Assembly (NCBI GenBank): GCA_020055645.1
Contig: CM034548.1
Coordinates: 26,214,201 to 26,278,200, forward strand
From: Tomocerus qinae
Taxonomy: Eukaryota > Arthropoda > Collembola > Entomobryomorpha > Tomoceridae
Direction of reading: 5' to 3'
Length of the DNA stretch: 64,000 bases
The notes below the pieces were generated by a model, which searched no databases, was not told the DNA's origin, and was given only the letters and a program-made list of their open reading frames with translations. The first letter of the stretch is position 1. Each line of letters begins with the position of its first letter. Below, piece after piece: positions 14,414 through 57,888 of the stretch. A program made the translations under genes and the position numbers.

Positions 14414-14515
14414 GATACAAGTAAGTATAGTACACACAATTCAGATACAAGTAAGTATAGTACACACAATTCAGATACAAGTAAGTATAGTACACACAAT
14501 TCAGATACAAGTGAG
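14414..14515 (+). repeat. 30-bp tandem repeat, 3.4 copies
   Basis: Three identical 30-bp units start at 14414, 14444 and 14474, and a partial fourth at 14504 diverges after GATACAAGTGAG. Each unit contains CAAGTAAGTATAG, which matches a strong 5' splice donor (CAA/GTAAGT) on the plus strand, antisense to dac. The unit length is a multiple of three, so it reads as a repeated peptide in one frame; I see no reason to think it is translated. Confidence 0.93.
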
Positions 14516-25154: not shown

Positions 25155-25164
25155 TAATACCTGG
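25155..25164 (-). other. 5' splice donor of dac exon 1
   Basis: On the minus strand the exon ends ...GGCCAG and the intron starts GTATTACC, with the GT at 25160-25159. The split falls after the second base of a codon (AG plus one base, Arg or Ser). This is where the recognisable family similarity (CTTA) stops and the downstream translation becomes unfamiliar. The open frame continues only 33 codons into the intron, to a stop at 25087-25085. Confidence 0.85.
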
Positions 25165-25840
25165 CCGTCGTGCAGTCTTTATAGAGAACGTCAAAGTCCT
25201 TGCAAGAGAGGAGTTTGCATCGGTTGACCCCAGGTTGTATGGCACCGAGACCGCGTAGGATGCGCACTTGCTCCACATTGCAGACAATTGGGACAATGTC
25301 AAGTCTTTTCAGTTTCGTGTACACAGTGTGGAGACCCCCGACCAAGTGTTTGAGGAAGAGTTCAAACGCTTGGGGCAAACATAGCATGGTGTCTCCATTG
25401 ATTACAAAAGCGGCGACTTTCTGCCCGCGGTAGTCGACCAACTTGCATTCGTTCGCACTCGGGTCGTTTGTAGGGACGACTGGAGCAGGCGGGCTGCCGT
25501 AAGGATGGCGGTCCAGTCCGCGGTCTCCTACGAAGGAGGAATTGCTCCCGCCAAAGTCATGGTGGAAGGAAGCCGCAGCTGCCGCGGAACTCATTGCATT
25601 CAGAGCACTCAAACTGGCCAAAATGCCCGGAGTCATTTTATTGGCCGAGGAGGCGGCAATGGAGTTGATCATGTGTTGAGCGGCCAGAGAAGTCGGTGGG
25701 CCCAATGGGGAATTTCTGTCAATTGGGGGACTGTACGGGGCTTTGGAGCCACGGCTGGACAGAGGAAGGGCCATGGGAGACAACGAGCCGCGAGAGGGTG
25801 GAGATGTCACGTCTTCACCGCTTGACCCTCCGGATTCCAT
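25161..25840 (-). CDS. dac: dachshund, first coding exon (DACH N-terminal domain)
   Basis: Dachshund is a nuclear co-regulator of the Ski/Sno/Dac family that works with Eyes absent and Sine oculis in eye development and patterns the middle of the leg in arthropods. Reading from the ATG at 25840, the exon encodes 226 codons plus 2 nt. Residues 1-129 are low-complexity (Ser/Pro/Ala-rich, with a five-Ala run and an SLAAQHMINSIAAS stretch). Residues about 130-226 are the DACH box-N domain, with the family signatures CLPQAFELFLKHLVGGLHTV and RILRGLGAIQPGVNRCKLL and the closing CKDFDVLYKDCTTA. The frame stays open upstream to a stop at 26015-26017, but the only ATGs are at 25864, 25858 and 25840. 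The ATG at 25840 has the best context (A at -3, G at +4), so I chose it; the others would add 6 or 8 residues. The exon is GC-rich against an AT-rich background. The C-terminal part of the protein lies outside the window. Family identity is very secure; the exact start is not. Confidence 0.97.
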
Positions 25841-26014
25841 CGTCTGATCTATTTTCATCAACATTGGGCGTTCAGCTGAGAGATGATTTGACCCTCCGAG
25901 TATGTAGGAGTTTAGGTGTGCGATTAACACACTGCTCAAGTTACAAGTACCAATTTTGTACCGGAGTCCTTCACACACTCTTTCACACAGATCCCACCAC
26001 GAATCTCTTTCCAA
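25841..26014 (-). other. probable dac 5' UTR (open but ATG-less N-terminal frame)
   Basis: This stretch is in frame with dac and free of stops, but holds only the two weak-context ATGs at 25864 and 25858. Its translation has no resemblance to dachshund that I recognise. A possible splice acceptor (CATCTCTCAG, minus strand, about 25877-25886) lies just before the first ATG, so part of it may be a 5' intron. Whether it is all leader or partly intron cannot be settled from sequence. Confidence 0.5.
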
Positions 26015-47194: not shown

Positions 47195-49884
47195 AAGTCA
47201 ATATACAACTTTGCTTGCTATACTTTTTCCAATTTCCAATGTGCAAAAAGCTTGGCCATACTATTATTATTATGACATAATTATGGCTGCATTATTACTA
47301 TTAGCCATCTTACAAATGCATTCATTGCAAACCTAAGTGGCACAATGCATTTTTCAAAAATAAATAAGATGTAGGTTTGAGATTTAGTAGTTCAGATACA
47401 TTGACTAGTATGTCCTTCAATTTTTCAATCAGAGCATCAGAAGGAATAGGATGAGTATTGGGTTTTACTGCAATGACTGTGTAAATAATTAAGTGAATGG
47501 CTATATACATCGTTCCTTTTTGTATTGGATGGAGTAAACTGACTGACATTGTCATTACATTTAAAAGTATCCTGATTTTGTAGGATAGTTAGAAGGTTGT
47601 AGTATTGAATCGAATGAAATGACGTTAAGTACACGTATTTATTTATAGTTAGTTATTTTTACGGGGGTACTATATGAGCGGAACTCATTAAACGGCTGAG
47701 GATAATGATAGAGAATGTAGTTTAGTGTAGTTAATATGTAATGTAGAAGGACACTTAGTTATTATTGAAGATGGTAAGATAGTAGAGCGAAGCGTGGAAA
47801 GGAGACGCGTGTTTGTACAATAGAAATGCAGCCATTCAAATAGTACTTATAGTTGATGACAGCAATAGTAATAGTAATAGCAGTTGTAGGAGTCTGTGCC
47901 GAAGCCACAAATACTAAAGAAGAAGAGGAATCAGAGACAGCCCCTTTTCTTCCTTCTCTGTAATGCTAGTCGTAAGAAGTCGTAATGCTCAGAGAAGACA
48001 CAGTTAGTCAGTCACATCACATCCACATGAATATCTCTGCCATTCCATTTGATTGCTACTCTTCTTCCTCTCTCCAGCCGTGCACTCGCCCTCGCAGTCC
48101 AAGAAGTAGGAGTTGAAGAAGGAGTCGCCTAAACGCAAGACTGCATCTTCATGTGCAAGAACATACACAATAGTATTTACATAGCTTCTTATATAATAAA
48201 ATTCCCTATCTCTATCTAATTTGTCTAAGAGTTACGAGCGAATATATTTAAAGTGCTTGACGTATAAATGTATTATAAAATGAATTACCTTAGTTTATCC
48301 AACAGGAATAAGAGGAAATAATACAGGTGTAATATTGTATGGATGGTGTATGAAATAATCCAGGAGGAGATCAGCAAAAGAAATCGTGTGTGAACATTTA
48401 GAGATAGGTAGCAAAGATAGGGAAACACACACAGCAAGGGTCAGAGCATATTGTACGAGTGTATAAAGTCGGATGAGTAAATATTTCTGCTGTAGCGCAA
48501 TGCAAAAGGGAAGAGCGACTTATGGTAAAACATTAAGTAGTATGTGTAGTTAAGGTTTGTAGGAGACAAAGTTGAGACGGATGGGGGAGTCTCGCACCCT
48601 AAGGAGACCCAGAAGAAGAAGCAAAAATAAATGAGGAATAGAACATACGTTGAGCAGAGTAGACAAGTCTTCAGTTCAACTCACTCCATAAACTTATCTT
48701 TAGACATCCCATCTCTAATGAATATTGTCTCATTTGGAATCAGATTAAGTTAACACTAAAAAATAACGAGTGTGAAAGCTTGGCAACTGCACTGAACGAA
48801 ACGAAAGAGACAGACGTGAGCAATGCAAAGTAAAGTCAAGTGGAGCGAAGGAAACATTCACTTCAGTTCCGTTTGGATGAACCTAACGTTCAGTTGAGGT
48901 TATGCAATAAACGATTATGGAAATTTTCTCCTCTCTCCGTCTTGTGTATAAATAGTCAAAACTTCTTCCAACTTCCTACACAAAAATTAGAGACATTGTT
49001 TCGTATTAGTACAGAGTCTGTCGCCCAACTTCCTCTCTCATTCCATCTGTCTCCAAACTCATTATGATTACTATCCCCTTATTATTATTATTTTTCACTA
49101 TGACCTTCTTACCTATCCCAAACTAATTAAAACCACACACTCCACATTTTCTGCATTATCATTTTTACTCATTTATTTCATATGCTAATTTTATTAATTT
49201 CATACTGCACACATGAACAACGGAGGATTCATTGATTTACTTTTATTATTCTTACCAAGAATCTACTACTCGAGTACTCTAAGTACAGTAAATTCATTCA
49301 ATAACAATGCAGGAAGATACAAATACATAAGTTCAACAGATAAACATATTTAAGGTGATATTACTTTATGCCCTTCCCATGCCGACAACTGGCAGACCAA
49401 TCATAGAAAGGGTTTGAGCTCTCAGCTCGATTTTCTCTGACTACTACTGAATGACATAAGTAAATTCACACTCTCAATGTTAACTCACAACTCTGTAGAC
49501 ACTCCGTCTAGTACAAAACACGTCCGGAATAATGCAACTCTCATACCATTGTATTTCTTTGCTTTCATGCTAAATGTATTGTACAATGTTCCTTTTGCCA
49601 TTATTTCTTTTATTAAAACCTAAAGAATCACATCCACTACATTACAATACAAAATACAATATACCATTGTCTAAAAAGGCATTTTTTTGGTTTTTGTTAT
49701 CAAAATGAGTTCAGAAATATTAATGCATAAAATTATAACCTAAATTTTATCTGAACGAGTTTGCCTGGGAATCTATGCAGTTTATGCTTACAGGGCCATT
49801 ATACGTTTCATGTAAGTAATATATAACAACAGGTTTGATAATTTTAAATATACAAATAGTAATCATTATAATATTACTCTAATG

Positions 49885-49940
49885 ATGAAAATAATAATCT
49901 ACCCGTCTTTTTTCTTGTGACAAATAGCAATATACTACCC
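49885..49940 (+). repeat. truncated left copy of the 236-bp flanking repeat
   Basis: AAAATAATAATCTACCCGT and ATACTACC here match AAAATAATTATCTACCCAT and TACTACC in the right-hand copies (around 57549 and 57639). The segment between them is shorter by about 50 bp. It runs directly into the first 10-mers of the array, which are of the CCGAATTCTT type. Confidence 0.55.
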
Positions 49941-52900
49941 TCCGAATTCTTCCGAATTCTTCCGAATTTGTCCCAACTCTTCCGAATTCTTCCGAATTCT
50001 CCCTAATTCTTTCGAATTCTTCCCAATTTGTCCCAATTCTTCCCAATTTGTCCTAATTCTTCCCAATTTGTCCCAATTTGTCCTAATTCTTCCCAATTTG
50101 TCCCAATTCTTCCAAATTTGTCCCAATTCTTACCAATTTGTCCCAATTCTTCCCAATTTGTCCCAAATTCTTCCCAATTTGTCCTAATTCTTCCCAATTT
50201 GTCCTAATTCTTCCCAATTTGTCCCAATTCTTCCCAATTTGTCCCAAATTCTTCCCAATTTGTCCCAATTCTTCCCAATTTGTCCCAATTCTTCCCAATT
50301 TGTCCCAATTCTTCCCAATTTGTCCCAATTTGTCCCAATTCTTCCCAATTTGTCCCAATTCTTCCCAATTTGTCCCAATTCTTCCCAATTTGTCCTAATT
50401 CTTCCCAATTTGTCCCAATTCTTCCCAATTTGTCCTAATTCTTCCCAATTTGTCCCAATTCTTCCCAATTTGTCCCAATTCTTCCCAATTTGTCCCAATT
50501 CTTCCCAATTTGTCCCAATTCTTCCCAATTTGTCCCAATTCTTCCCAATTTGTCCCAATTCTTCCCAATTTGTCCCAATTCTTCCCAATTTGTCCCAATT
50601 TGTCCCAATTTGTCCCAATTTGTCCCAATTCTTCCCAATTTGTCCTAATTCTTCCCAATTTGTCCCAATTTGTCCTAATTCTTCCCAATTTGTCCCAATT
50701 CTTCCCAATTTGTCCCAATTCTTCCCAATTTGTCCTAATTCTTCCCAATTTGTCCCAATTTGTCCTAATTCTTCCCAATTTGTCCCAATTCTTCCAAATT
50801 TGTCCCAATTCTTACCAATTTGTCCCAATTCTTCCCAATTTGTCCCAATTCTTCCCAATTTGTCCCAATTCTTCCCAATTTGTCCCAATTCTTCCCAATT
50901 TGTCCCAATTCTTCCCAATTTGTCCCAATTCTTCCCAATTTGTCCCAATTCTTCCCAATTTGTCCCAATTCTTCCAAATTTGTCCCAATTCTTACCAATT
51001 TGTCCCAATTTGTCCTAATTCTTCCCAATTTGTCTGTCCCAATTCTTCTCAATTTGTCCTGTTCTTCCCAATTTGTCCTAATTCTTCCTAATTCTTCCCA
51101 ATTCCAATTTTCCCAATTTGTCTTCCTAATTTGTCCTCAATTTTCCTAATTCGTCCCAATTTGTCCTAAATTCTTCCCAATTTGTCCTAATTCTTCCCAA
51201 TTTGTCGTCCTAATGCTTCCCAATTTGTCCCAAATTCTGTCCCAATTTGTCCCAATTCTTCCTAATTCTTCCAATTTGTCCCAAATTCTTCCCAATTCTT
51301 CCCAATTTGTCCCAAATTCTTCCCAATTTGTCCCAATTCTTCCCAATTTGTCCCAATTCTTCCCAATTTGTCCCAATTCTTCCCAATTTGTCCCAATTCT
51401 TCCCAATTTGTCCTAATTCTTCCCAATTTGTCCCAATTCTTCCCAATTCGTCCCAATTTGTCCCAAATTCTTCTCAATTTGTCCCAATTCTTCCCAATTT
51501 GTCCTAATTCTTCCCAATTTGTCCCAATTCTTCCCAATTCGTCCCAATTTGTCCCAATTTGTCCCAATTCTTCCCAATTTGTCCCAATTCTTCCCAATTT
51601 GTCCCAATTCTTCCCAATTTGTCCTAATTCTTCCCAATTTGTCCCAATTCTTCCCAATTTGTCCCAATTCTTCCCAATTTGTCCCAATTCTTCCCAATTT
51701 GTCCCAATTCTTCCCAATTTTACCCAATTCTTCCCAATTTGTCCCAATGCTTCCCAATTTGTCCCAATGCTTCCCAATTTGTCCCAATTCTTCCCAATTT
51801 GTCACCAATTCTTCCCAATTTGTCCCAATACCTCTTCCCAATTTGTCCCAATTCTTCCCAATTTGTCCCAATTCTTCCCAATTCGTCCCAATTTGTCCCA
51901 AATTCTTCCCAATTTGTCCCAATTCTTCCCAATTTGTCCCAATGCTTCCCAATTTGTCCCAATTCTTCCCAATTTGTCCCAATGCTTCCCAATTTGTCCC
52001 AATTCTTCCCAATTTGTCCCAATTCTTCCCAATTTGTCCCAATTCTTCCCAATTTGTCCTAATTCTTCCCAATTTGTCCCAATTCTTCCCAATTCTTCCC
52101 AATTTGTCCCAATTCTTCCCAATTTGTCCCAATGCTTCCCAATTTGTCCCAATTCTTCCCAATTTGTCCCAATTCTTCCCAATTTGTCCCAATTCTTCCC
52201 AATTTGTCCTAATTCTTCCCAATTTGTCCCAATTCTTCCCAATTCGTCCCAATTTGTCCCAAATTCTTCCCAATTTGTCCCAATTCTTCCCAATTTGTCC
52301 CAATTCTTCCCAATTCGTCCCAATTTGTCCCAAATTCTTCTCAATTTGTCCCAATTCTTCCCAATTTGTCCCAATTCTTCCCAATTTGTCCTAATTCTTC
52401 CCAATTTGTCCCAATTCTTCCCAATTCTTCCCAATTTGTCCCAAATTCTTCTCAATTTGTCCCAATTCTTCCCAATTTGTCCTAATTCTTCCCAATTTGT
52501 CCCAATTCTTCCCAATTTGTCCCAATTCTTCCCAATTTGTCCCAATTCTTCCCAATTTGTCCTAATTCTTCCCAATTTGTCCCAATTCTTCCCAATTTGT
52601 CCCAATTCTTCCCAATTTGTCCCAATTCTTCCCAATTTGTCCTAATTCTTCCCAATTTGTCCCAATTCTTCCCAATTCGTCCCAATTTGTCCCAAATTCT
52701 TCTCAATTTGTCCCAATTCTTCCCAATTTGTCCTAATTCTTCCCAATTTGTCCCAATTCTTCCCAATTTGTCCCAATTCTTCCCAATTTGTCCCAATTCT
52801 TCCCAATTTGTCCCAATTCTTCCCAATTTGTCCCAATTCTTCCCAATTTGTCCTAATTCTTCCCAATTTGTCCCAATTCTTCCCAATTCGTCCCAATTTG

Positions 52901-53916
52901 TCCCAAATTCTTCCCAATTTGTCCCAATTCTTCCCAATTTGTCCCAATTCTTCCCAATTTGTCCCAATTCTTCCCAATTTGTCCCAATTCTTCCCAATTT
53001 GTCCCAATTCTTCCCAATTTGTCCCAATTCTTCCCAATTTGTCCCAATTCTTCCCAATTTGTCCCAATTCTTCCCAATTTGTCCCAATTCTTCCCAATTT
53101 GTCCCAATGCTTCCCAATTTGTCCCAATTCTTCCCAATTCTTCCCAATTTGTCCCAATTCTTCCCAATTTGTCCTAATTCTTCCCAATTTGTCCCAATTC
53201 TTCCCAATTCGTCCCAATTTGTCCCTAATTCTTCCCAATTTGTCCCAATTCTTCCCAATTCGTCCCAATTTGTCCCAAATTCTTCCCAATTTGTCCCAAT
53301 TCTTCCCAATTTGTCCCAATTCTTCCCAATTTGTCCCAATTCTTCCCAATTTGTCCCAATTCTTCCCAATTTGTCCCAATGCTTCCCAATTTGTCCCAAT
53401 TCTTCCCAATTTGTCCCAATTCTTCCCAATTTGTCCCAATTCTTCCCAATTTGTCCTAATTCTTCCCAATTTGTCCCAATTCTTCCCAATTCGTCCCAAT
53501 TTGTCCCAAATTCTTCTCAATTTGTCCCAATTCTTCCCAATTTGTCCTAATTCTTCCCAATTTGTCCCAATTCTTCCCAATTCGTCCCAATTTGTCCCAA
53601 ATTCTTCTCAATTTGTCCCAATTCTTCCCAATTTGTCCCAATTCTTCCCAATTTGTCCTAATTCTTCCCAATTTGTCCCAATTCTTCCCAATTTGTCCCA
53701 AATTCTTCCCAATTTGTCCTAATTCTTCCCAATTTGTCCCAATTCTTCCCAATTTGTCCCAATTCTTCCCAATTTGTCCTAATTCTTCCCAATTTGTCCC
53801 AATTCTTCCCAATTTGTCCCAATTCTTCCCAATTTGTCCCAATTCTTCCCAATTTGTCCCAATTCTTCCCAATTTGTCCCAATGCTTCCCAATTTGTCCC
53901 AATTCTTCCCAATTTG

Positions 53917-54631
53917 TCCCAAATTCTTCCCAATTTGTCCCAATTCTTCCCAATTTGTCCTAATTCTTCCCAATTTGTCCCAATTCTTCCCAATTCGTCC
54001 CAATTTGTCCCAAATTCTTCCCAATTTGTCCCAATTCTTCCCAATTTGTCCCAATTCTTCCCAATTTGTCCCAATGCTTCCCAATTTGTCCCAATTCTTC
54101 CCAATTTGTCCCAATTCTTCCCAATTTGTCCCAATTCTTCCCAATTTGTCCTAATTCTTCCCAATTTGTCCCAATTCTTCCCAATTCGTCCCAATTTGTC
54201 CCAAATTCTTCTCAATTTGTCCCAATTCTTCCCAATTTGTCCTAATTTGTCCCAAATTCTTCCCAATTTGTCCCAATTCTTCCCAATTCGTCCCAATTTG
54301 TCACAAATTCTTCCCAATTTGTCCCAATTCTTCCCAATTTGTCCTAATTCTTCCCAATTTGTCCCAATTCTTCCCAATTCGTCCCAATTTGTCCCAAATT
54401 CTTCCCAATTTGTCCCAATTCTTCCCAATTTGTCCCAATTCTTCCCAATTTGTCCCAATGCTTCCCAATTTGTCCCAATTCTTCCCAATTTGTCCCAATT
54501 CTTCCCAATTTGTCCCAATTCTTCCCAATTTGTCCTAATTCTTCCCAATTTGTCCCAATTCTTCCCAATTCCTCCCAATTTGTCCCAAATTCTTCTCAAT
54601 TTGTCCCAATTCTTCCCAATTTGTCCTAATT
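53917..54631. repeat. higher-order duplication in the array, offset 384 bp
   Basis: Positions 53917-54247 recur at 54301-54631 with only a few differences. Three separate rare variants keep exactly the same offset: CCCAATG at 54070 and 54454, the AATTCGT variant at 53997 and 54381 (its G), and the TTCTC variant at 54211 and 54595. This shows block duplication rather than independent mutation. Confidence 0.85.
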
Positions 54632-55940
54632 CTTCCCAATTTGTCCCAATTCTTCCCAATTTGTCTCTGCAATTCTTCCCAATTTGTCCCAATTCTTCCC
54701 AATTTGTCCTAATTCTTCCCAATTTGTCCCAATTCTTCCCAATTTGTCCCAATTCTTCCCAATTTGTCCCAATTCTTCCCAATTTGTCCTAATTCTTCCC
54801 AATTTGTCCCAATTCTTCCCAATTCGTCCCAATTTGTCCCAAATTCTTCTCAATTTGTCCCAATTCTTCCCAATTTGTCCTAATTCTTCCCAATTTGTCC
54901 CAATTCTTCCCAATTTGTCCCAATTCTTCCCAATTTGTCCCAATTCTTCCCAATTTGTCCTAATTCTTCCCAATTTGTCCCAATTCTTCCCAATTCGTCC
55001 CAATTTGTCCCAAATTCTTCCCAATTTGTCCCAATTCTTCCCAATTTGTCCCAATTCTTCCCAATTTGTCCCAATTCTTCCCAATTTGTCCCAATTCTTC
55101 CCAATTTGTCCCAATTCTTCCCAATTTGTCCCAATTCTTCCCAATTTGTCCTAATTCTTCCCAATTTGTCCCAATTCTTCCCAATTTGTCCCAATTTGTC
55201 CCAAATTCTTCCCAATTTGTCCCAATTCTTCCCAATTTGTCCCAATTCTTCCCAATTTGTCCCAATTCTTCCCAATTTGTCCCAATTCTTCCCAATTTGT
55301 CCCAATTCTTCCCAATTTGTCCCAATTCTTCCCAATTTGTCCTAATTCTTCCCAATTTGTCCCAATTCTTCCCAATTTGTCCCAATTTGTCCCAAATTCT
55401 TCCCAATTTGTCCTAATTCTTCCCAATTTGTCCTAATTCTTCCCAATTTGTCCCAATTCTTCCCAATTTGTCCCAATTCTTCCCAATTTGTCCCAATTCT
55501 TCCCAATTTGTCCTAATTCTTCCCAATTTGTCCCAATTCTTCCCAATTTGTCCCAATTCTTCCCAATTTGTCCCAAATTCTTCCCAATTTGTCCCAATTC
55601 TTCCCAATTTGTCCTAATTTGTCCCAAATTCTTCCCAATTTGTCCCAATTCTTCCCAATTCGTCCCAATTTGTCACAAATTCTTCCCAATTTGTCCCAAT
55701 TCTTCCCAATTTGTCCTAATTCTTCCCAATTTGTCCCAATTCTTCCCAATTCGTCCCAATTTGTCCCAAATTCTTCCCAATTTGTCCCAATTCTTCCCAA
55801 TTTGTCCCAATTCTTCCCAATTTGTCCCAATTCTTCCCAATTTGTCCCAATTCTTCCCAATTTGTCCCAATTCTTCCCAATTTGTCCCAATTCTTCCCAA
55901 TTTGTCCTAATTCTTCCCAATTTGTCCCAATTCTTCCCAA
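54241..55940. repeat. long-distance duplication in the array, offset 1372 bp
   Basis: Positions 54241-54459 match 55613-55831 base for base, including the variant TCACAAATTC (54301 and 55673), which I saw at only these two places. Similarity continues for at least another 100 bp (CCTAA at 54534 and 55906). Confidence 0.85.
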
Positions 55941-57453
55941 TTCTTCCCAATTTGTCCCAAATTCTTCCCAATTTGTCCCAATTCTTCCCAATTTGTCCTA
56001 ATTCTTCCCAATTTGTCCCAATTCTTCCCAATTTGTCCCAATTCTTCCCAATTTGTCCCAATTCTTCCCAATTTGTCCCAATTCTTCCCAATTTGTCCCA
56101 ATTCTTCCCAATTTGTCCCAATTCTTCCCAATTTGTCCCAATTCTTCCCAATTTGTCCTAATTCTTCCCAATTTGTCCCAATTCTTCCCAATTCGTCCCA
56201 ATTTGTCCCAAATTCTTCCCAATTTGTCCCAATTCTTCCCAATTTGTCCCAATTCTTCCCAATTTGTCCCAATTCTTCCCAATTTGTCCCAATTCTTCCC
56301 AATTTGTCCCAATTCTTCCCAATTTGTCCTAATTCTTCCCAATTTGTCCCAATTCTTCCCAATTTGTCCCAATTTGTCCCAAATTCTTCCCAATTTGTCC
56401 CAATTCTTCCCAATTTGTCCCAATTCTTCCCAATTTGTCCCAATTCTTCCCAATTTGTCCCAATTCTTCCCAATTTGTCCCAATTCTTCCCAATTTGTCC
56501 CAATTCTTCCCAATTTGTCCCAATTCTTCCCAATTTGTCCCAATTCTTCCCAATTCTTCCCAATTTGTCCCAATTCTTCCCAATTTGTCCCAATTCTTCC
56601 CAATTTGTCCCAATTCTTCCCAATTTGTCCCAATTCTTCCCAATTTGTCCCAATTCTTCCCAATTTGTCCCAATTCTTCCCAATTTGTCCCAATTCTTCC
56701 CAATTTGTCCTAATTCTTCCCAATTTGTCCCAATTCTTCCCAATTTGTCCCAATTTGTCCCAATTCTTCCCAATTTGTCCCAATTCTTCCCAATTTGTCC
56801 TAATTCTTCCCAATTTGTCCCAATTCTTCCCAATTCGTCCCAATTTGTCCCAATTTGTCCCAATTCTTCCCAATTTGTCCCAATTCTTCCCAATTTGTCC
56901 CAATTCTTCCCAATTTGTCCTAATTCTTCCCAATTTGTCCCAATTCTTCCCAATTTGTCCCAATTCTTCCCAATTTGTCCCAATTCTTCCCAATTTGTCC
57001 CAATTCTTCCCAATTTGTCCCAATTCTTCCCAATTTGTCCCAATTCTTCCCAATTTGTCCCAATTCTTCCCAATTTGTCCCAATTCTTCCCAATTTGTCC
57101 CAATTCTTCCCAATTTGTCCCAATTCTTCCCAATTTGTCCTAATTCTTCCCAATTTGTCCCAATTCTTCCCAATTCGTCCCAATTTGTCCCAATTTGTCC
57201 CAATTTGTCCCAATTTGTCCCAATTCTTCCCAATTTGTCCTAATTCTTCCCAATTTGTCCCAATTCTTCCCAATTCGTCCCAATTTGTCCCAATTTGTCC
57301 CAATTTGTCCCAATTTGTCCCAATTCTTCCCAATTTGTCCCAATTTGTCCCATTTTGTCCCAATTTGTCCCAATTTGTCCCAATTTGTCCCAATTCTTCC
57401 CAATTTGTCCCAATTCTTCCCAATTTGTCCCAATTCTTCCAAATTCTTTCGAT

Positions 57454-57648
57454 TTACATTGTAACGTGTATCTATCGATGTCTTAACCTGTGAAGTTGCC
57501 TTTTACTATGGTAGTAGTATATTTCCAGTTTTTACTTAACCTATTAATAAAAATAATTATCTACCCATTCCATTTCATGTGAAAAGTGAATTCATGATTC
57601 TAGGAGACCTTAAAAATCATTATTGAACAGTAAAACAAATTACTACGC
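57454..57648 (+). repeat. 236-bp-period flanking repeat, copy 1
   Basis: It begins TTACATTGTAACGTGTATCT directly after the array and ends near ACTACGCC. It is about 90% identical to the next copy, 236 bp to the right. No coding potential or known family is recognised. Confidence 0.9.
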
Positions 57649-57669
57649 CTATTTTAGGCTTCAAAAGAG

Positions 57670-57689
57670 TTCATCCGAATTCATCCGAA
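57670..57689 (+). repeat. two-unit 10-mer repeat between the flanking copies
   Basis: Two perfect TTCATCCGAA units sit immediately before the TTACATTG start of copy 2, the same position the giant array occupies relative to copy 1. They match the array's left-edge units (TTCTTCCGAA) at 9 of 10 bases. Confidence 0.85.
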
Positions 57690-57888
57690 TTACATTGTAA
57701 CGTGTATCTATCGATGTCTTAACCTGTGAAGTTGCCTTTTATTATGGTAGTAGCATATTTCCAGTTTTTACTTAACCTACTAATAAAAATAATGATGTAC
57801 CCATGTCATTTCATATAAAAAGTGAATACATGATTCTAGGAGACCTTAAAAATCATTCTGGAACATTAAAACAACATACTACCATGTA
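57690..57888 (+). repeat. 236-bp-period flanking repeat, copy 2
   Basis: This is the second copy of the unit described at 57454. The first 50 bp are identical to copy 1 and the rest differs by scattered substitutions. It ends at ATACTACCATG without a following 10-mer run. Confidence 0.9.

Follow-up and report, generated by a model that had tools for sequence, protein, structure and literature searches.

A tandem array of 7.5 kb within the window (the whole stretch of 64 kb of DNA that was analysed) is a real, ordinary minisatellite. Very probably, it is non-coding, lies in the 5' region of a dachshund (dac) orthologue of an animal, probably an arthropod, and expanded locally from a short seed, its openness in all six reading frames being accidental. 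The features on which this reading is based are the following.

49941 to 57452, no strand assigned: minisatellite array (TRF, half-unit count and half-unit decomposition).
49942 to 50014, + strand: left edge of the array with the relic seed-like half-units AATTCTTCCG and AATTCTTTCG (CCGAA positions, half-unit list).
49843 to 49923, + strand: probable third copy, in decayed form, of a 236-bp repeat, bordering the array on its left side (a 45-bp match at 75.6%, E 0.002-0.005).
57450 to 57646, + strand: copy 1 of the 236-bp repeat, directly adjoining the array (92% identity with copy 2 across 196-197 bp; TRF period 236).
57670 to 57689, + strand: seed (TTCATCCGAA)2 in unexpanded form where copy 2 starts, presumed to be the state before expansion (alignment of the 236-bp copies).
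57686 to 57882, + strand: copy 2 of the 236-bp repeat (TRF, comparison with copy 1, alignment of both copies).
25161 to 25864, - strand: coding part of an exon of the dac orthologue with the SKI/SNO/DAC homology domain (PF02437, E=1.7e-37).

TRF placed the array at 49951-57445, with a period of 20, 382.9 copies, 88% matches and the consensus unit TCCCAATTCTTCCCAATTTG; the borders 49941-57452 of the sequence-only reading agree with this once the edge units are included. Decomposition resulted in approximately 745 half-units with a mean length of 10.06 bp, and the 20-bp unit is a dimer of two diverged 10-bp halves that both contain TCCCAATT. The right edge terminates in CCAAATTCTTTCGATTT, and an irregular stretch is found in the interior at ~50.9-51.4 kb, where 23 of 47 half-units are canonical. 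As a repeat, the array is far beyond chance, and it is the only long array of this kind that TRF identified in the 64-kb window; satellite DNA in the strict sense is marked by abundant arrays in heterochromatin. Minisatellites are recognized by head-to-tail units of ~10-100 bp in a kilobase array, seen here as a period of 20, 383 copies and 7.5 kb, and by diverged or ancestral edge units around a homogenised interior, which the array also has. In the passages of PMC8122249 that deal with them, minisatellites are described with ~15-bp units and arrays of 0.5-30 kb in the euchromatin of vertebrates, fungi and plants. The loci of the minisatellite/VNTR type covered in parts of PMC6947457 and PMC8122249 share with the array a unit of 10-20 bp, a kilobase length and a short direct-repeat seed; they differ in that two 10-bp halves alternate as a dimer in the unit of this array, the only difference seen. 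Elsewhere in the window, at 14414-14512, about three perfect copies of the 30-bp unit GATACAAGTAAGTATAGTACACACAATTCA were observed (TRF score 198).

The array is located 24 kb upstream of the dac exon. Of the 77 stop-to-stop ORFs listed, nine outside the array were scanned with Pfam (E up to 0.01), and this exon was the sole one to match; the window may contain other genes. The solved structure nearest to the exon is that of Dachshund (PDB 1l8r, E=3.2e-49). The putative start ATG of the exon at 25864 and the donor-like site CCAG/GTATTA after 25161 were both read by eye. Neither an Rfam family at gathering score nor a tRNA was found in the window, and a structured RNA or ncRNA was rejected on these grounds.

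The flanks of the array point to its origin. Copy 2 of the 236-bp repeat starts with (TTCATCCGAA)2 at the position where copy 1 starts with the array, and within the array the motif CCGAA occurs only at 49942, 49952, 49962, 49982 and 49992, that is, in the first 56 bp. The decayed copy on the left is a modest match: its local score was 50, compared with 29.4 ± 5.1 in 500 shuffles, none of which reached 50, and 248 further stretches of the window scored 45 at most. The 236-bp unit (57450-57882, with a trace at 49843-49923) is possibly an old interspersed element. The idea that the array sits inside a transposon bounded by terminal inverted repeats was rejected, as no convincing inverted pair was found between the 3-kb flanks (best E 1.1). 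Within the array, 735 maximal exact repeat pairs of at least 100 bp were identified, the longest of 310 bp, and rare half-unit variants recur at a lag of 9 half-units (19 seen, 6.4 expected, z 5.7) as well as at lags of 37 (z 4.1) and 18 (z 3.5), these being the best of 78 lags tested. Edge relics, unexpanded seed, internal duplications and variant recurrence are as expected if a seed first underwent slippage and unequal exchange came afterwards.

Judged from these sequence features, slippage and unequal exchange most likely made the array out of a (TTCATCCGAA)n seed, located where a duplicated 236-bp sequence has its joint. A 236-bp sequence with the short (TTCATCCGAA)n seed at its joint would have been duplicated, after which the seed would have expanded through slippage in one of the copies. 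The expanding seed may then have gained the changes A>T (TTCATCC to TTCTTCC) and G>C (TCCGAA to TCCCAA), and the repeat would have split into two alternating 10-bp types, ending in AATTCT and AATTTG, respectively. Finally, the 20-bp dimer, and with it variant blocks measuring roughly 90 to 370 bp, would have spread and been homogenised, either via gene conversion or via unequal exchange. The birth of minisatellites from very short repeats via slippage or unequal crossing-over is described in the relevant part of PMC6947457. We infer that the array expanded, since a single sequence forms the basis of this reconstruction; the opposite history, a contraction of the array in copy 2, would give the same picture, and the 236-bp copies are no proof of which state came first.

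The consensus contains no stop codon in any of the six frames, and it bears out the view that each strand encodes one 20-residue cycle, shifted among its three frames, because neither 10 nor 20 is divisible by 3. The two cycles are SQFFPICPNSSQFVPILPNL and QIGKNWDKLGRIGTNWEELG. Inside 49941-57452, the longest stop-free runs comprise 410, 413 and 459 codons in the three frames of the + strand and 413, 410 and 321 codons in those of the - strand, so that the earlier value of about 425 codons for the longest open frame was too low. The recurring CCTAA variant had been proposed as the only element that closes a frame. This holds for the + strand, where all 64 stops are TAA within CCTAA, but not for the - strand, where 64 of the 82 stops are TAG opposite CCTAA and the other 18 (14 TGA and 4 TAA) arise from other variants. 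Start codons are scarce, with 11 ATG on the + strand and one on the - strand, and six ATG-initiated ORFs overlap the array by >100 bp (292, 215, 147, 90 and 67 aa on the + strand and 37 aa on the - strand).

Six-frame openness of the array is unremarkable and not beyond chance. Among random pieces taken from the window outside the array and cyclised, 5.6% of 20-mers and 21% of 10-mers were open in six frames, and the same was true for 2.3% of shuffles of the 20-bp unit and 10.6% of shuffles of one 10-bp half. Order-1 Markov sequences with the dinucleotides of the array had a mean maximum open run of 775 codons (100 simulations), compared with 459 in the array. A repeat of the seed TTCATCCGAA is open on the + strand and closed on the - strand by TGA, whereas TTCTTCCGAA, which differs from the seed by one A>T change, is open on both strands, as are both derived halves. 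The A>T change alone opened the - strand, and six-frame openness is therefore a by-product of one substitution and an accident. Repeats of base oligomers with a length not divisible by 3 were reportedly proposed by Ohno as frame-proof coding sequence. The array resembles these in that a 10- or 20-mer repeat gives one periodic peptide in all three frames, but differs in that its sequence carries no sign of translation or of selection as protein. The literature searches on minisatellites open in all frames returned nothing on point in the excerpts covered.

Among the alternative explanations, the one that survives best, although it is unlikely, is that the array is a selected structural DNA element. 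Phased AATT/CCC would then bend the DNA upstream of dac and either position nucleosomes there or give rise to a heterochromatin-like block prone to G-quadruplexes. Of the 730 intervals between successive AATT in the array, 669 measure exactly 10 bp, and this phasing leads to a predicted curvature. The WW period is 10.05-10.1 bp, with a median power of 37 in 147-bp segments of the array versus 4.5 in segments of the left flank. In a wedge model with assumed angles, for which both the positive and the negative control repeats gave the expected outcome, the ratio of end-to-end to contour length was 0.70 in the array versus 0.957, and none of 2808 other segments lay at or below the median ratio of the array. 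Shuffled 20-bp repeats were as bent as the array in 1.1% of 1000 cases, but among 1000 repeats made from a shuffled 10-bp half this share was 9.5%, and, taken alone, the half TCCCAATTCT is only weakly bent (0.873). The seed is not bent in this model (0.95). Curvature predicted from phased A/T tracts is also described for insect pericentric satellites in the part of PMC8122249 that covers them, which is a point in favor of a structural element; the array differs from these in its very short unit, its position 24 kb from a gene and its occurrence as one array in the window.

GGG occurs every 10 nt in the array. Quadruplex-type patterns, defined as four C runs of 3 or more with loops of 1-7, start at 382 positions and cover 70% of the array, and none was found on either strand of the other 56.5 kb. 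However, the predicted gain from quadruplex folding is small (0.66 kcal/mol in 80 nt of RNA), and hairpin folding of the DNA was no better than that of shuffles (z 0.05 and -1.21). The distribution of changes over the unit speaks against selection on the AATT core. Raw counts were suggestive, with 17 of 277 substitutions in 8 of the 20 columns. After removal of half-unit exchanges and clonal copies, 41 changes were left which are unevenly distributed over the unit (chi-square p=1e-8): 30 fall in the six C columns, 8 in the eight AATT columns (16.4 expected) and 3 in the six linker columns (12.3 expected). AATT is depleted in changes, yet no more than the linker; a protection of AATT is not borne out, and selection on the core was rejected. 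The modelled curvature is therefore treated as a by-product and not as a demonstrated function of the minisatellite.

That the array is a real repeat-protein gene, read from one strand in one frame and encoding for instance a silk-, glue- or mucin-like protein, is extremely improbable. The open runs of up to 459 codons and the ATG-initiated ORF of 292 codons on the + strand are in line with such a gene, but they are set against 64 stops on the + strand and 82 on the - strand. Wraparound alignment of the array to the consensus gave 277 substitutions and 96 indel events, which are not independent because variants copied within the array were counted repeatedly. Counting each such copy, only 6 of the 96 indel events are a multiple of 3, and the substitutions are spread evenly over the three phases (103/85/89, p=0.38). 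Counted in the same way, synonymous changes number 61-85 and stop-creating changes 17-26 in each of the six frames, and the non-synonymous counts are alike as well. A protein-coding repeat gene is expected to have frame-keeping indels and a synonymous bias in one frame, and the array has neither; the frame-by-frame comparison of synonymous with non-synonymous changes favored no frame and hence revealed no gene signature. A coding frame was rejected on the basis of the frame-blind indels, the flat phase and the six alike frames, and these results support the non-coding interpretation that the sequence-only reading had given to the open frames.

Matches to Pfam can be cited for a gene. Of the array translations, 4 of 11 (1 of 1 in one scan and 3 of 10 in another) exceeded a Pfam gathering score, the families being Decapeptide (45.1 vs 45), Thioredoxin_9, Thioredoxin_8 and DUF7495. 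The Decapeptide repeat region (PF25296) was only just passed by the translation of 55907-57139 of the window on the - strand (45.1 against a gathering score of 45); three further - strand translations matched it below the cut-off (31.6-34.7), each with 2-3 single stretches at an E limit of 10, and it was unlisted for the remaining seven. However, the matches above the cut-off are without any single stretch within this E limit and name different families in different frames, and control proteins from shuffled units also passed Pfam in 3 of 6 cases (Vitelline_membr, NADH-G_4Fe-4S_3 and UBA_4). As the controls were 200 aa long and perfectly periodic and the array translations 275-458 aa and imperfect, the two pass rates are roughly comparable at best. 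The annotation hazard is generic and common to control repeats. It had been predicted that an annotation pipeline would call many false repetitive proteins in the array; at the domain level this hazard is real (4 of 11 pass Pfam), but "many" is overstated because ATG is nearly absent from the array.

Other protein matches were weak. The best E values of PDB sequence matches for two array translations were 0.0037 and 0.00091, and these are treated as composition matches. A tblastn search of plasmids with one - strand translation gave 41 records, all with <60% identity; the best 20 of the 41 have 21.5-27.6% identity and 15 of these 20 stand under pentapeptide-repeat proteins. They are likewise taken as composition matches. 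In prokaryote contigs, a peptide-pattern search with one - strand translation matched three stretches, none of which was confirmed as an encoded relative, and no stretch of four successive AATTNNTCCC half-units was found. Viral contigs contained neither an exact 29-mer of the array nor a 35-mer of the 236-bp unit. Three successive AATTNNTCCC matched two IMG/VR viral contigs (L001, 10443-10491, and L002, 1040-1087), each with ~5 copies of the 10-bp unit TGGGAGAAAT, which when turned reads AATTTCTCCC and is one base away from the array half AATTTGTCCC. Because the pattern fixes eight of ten bases and the viral arrays are ~50 bp, this similarity probably reflects convergence.

An interstitial telomeric repeat can be dismissed as hardly credible: the array shares the ATTGGG core with the chalcid-wasp telomere repeat TTATTGGG (in the part of PMC8977481 concerned) and contains 64 copies of CCTAA, the insect telomere repeat, but its edge units and the seed (TCCGAATTCA) are without the GGG/CCC core, the CCTAA copies are always at least 10 bp apart and never form a tandem 5-mer, so that a tandem telomeric motif is missing from the array, and 'TTGGGA' and 'AATTGGG' are absent from the main text of PMC8977481 and PMC9841428.

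For annotation, the minisatellite gives reason for caution, as a stop-free tandem repeat with a unit length that is not a multiple of 3 has three frames open at once, and the long, repetitive proteins read from it can exceed curated Pfam thresholds by adding up weak matches. Members of PF25296 may merit a check for being translated minisatellites. For dac, it is conceivable, albeit very unlikely, that the array, if located in a 5' intron, acts as a curved, phased 7.5-kb block carrying GGG at 10-nt intervals on the strand copied by dac transcription, and that its length could tune dac. If this were true, array RNA transcribed with dac could stall the polymerase or seed heterochromatin, or 20-residue repeat peptides could be made from it with starts other than ATG. 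As far as the excerpts of the literature describe RAN-translated expansions such as C9ORF72 GGGGCC, the array shares with them few ATG, a G-rich strand and open frames, but has a longer unit and a weak predicted quadruplex gain. Since seed, edge relics and unexpanded duplicate stand side by side, the locus illustrates rather cleanly how a minisatellite may come into being.
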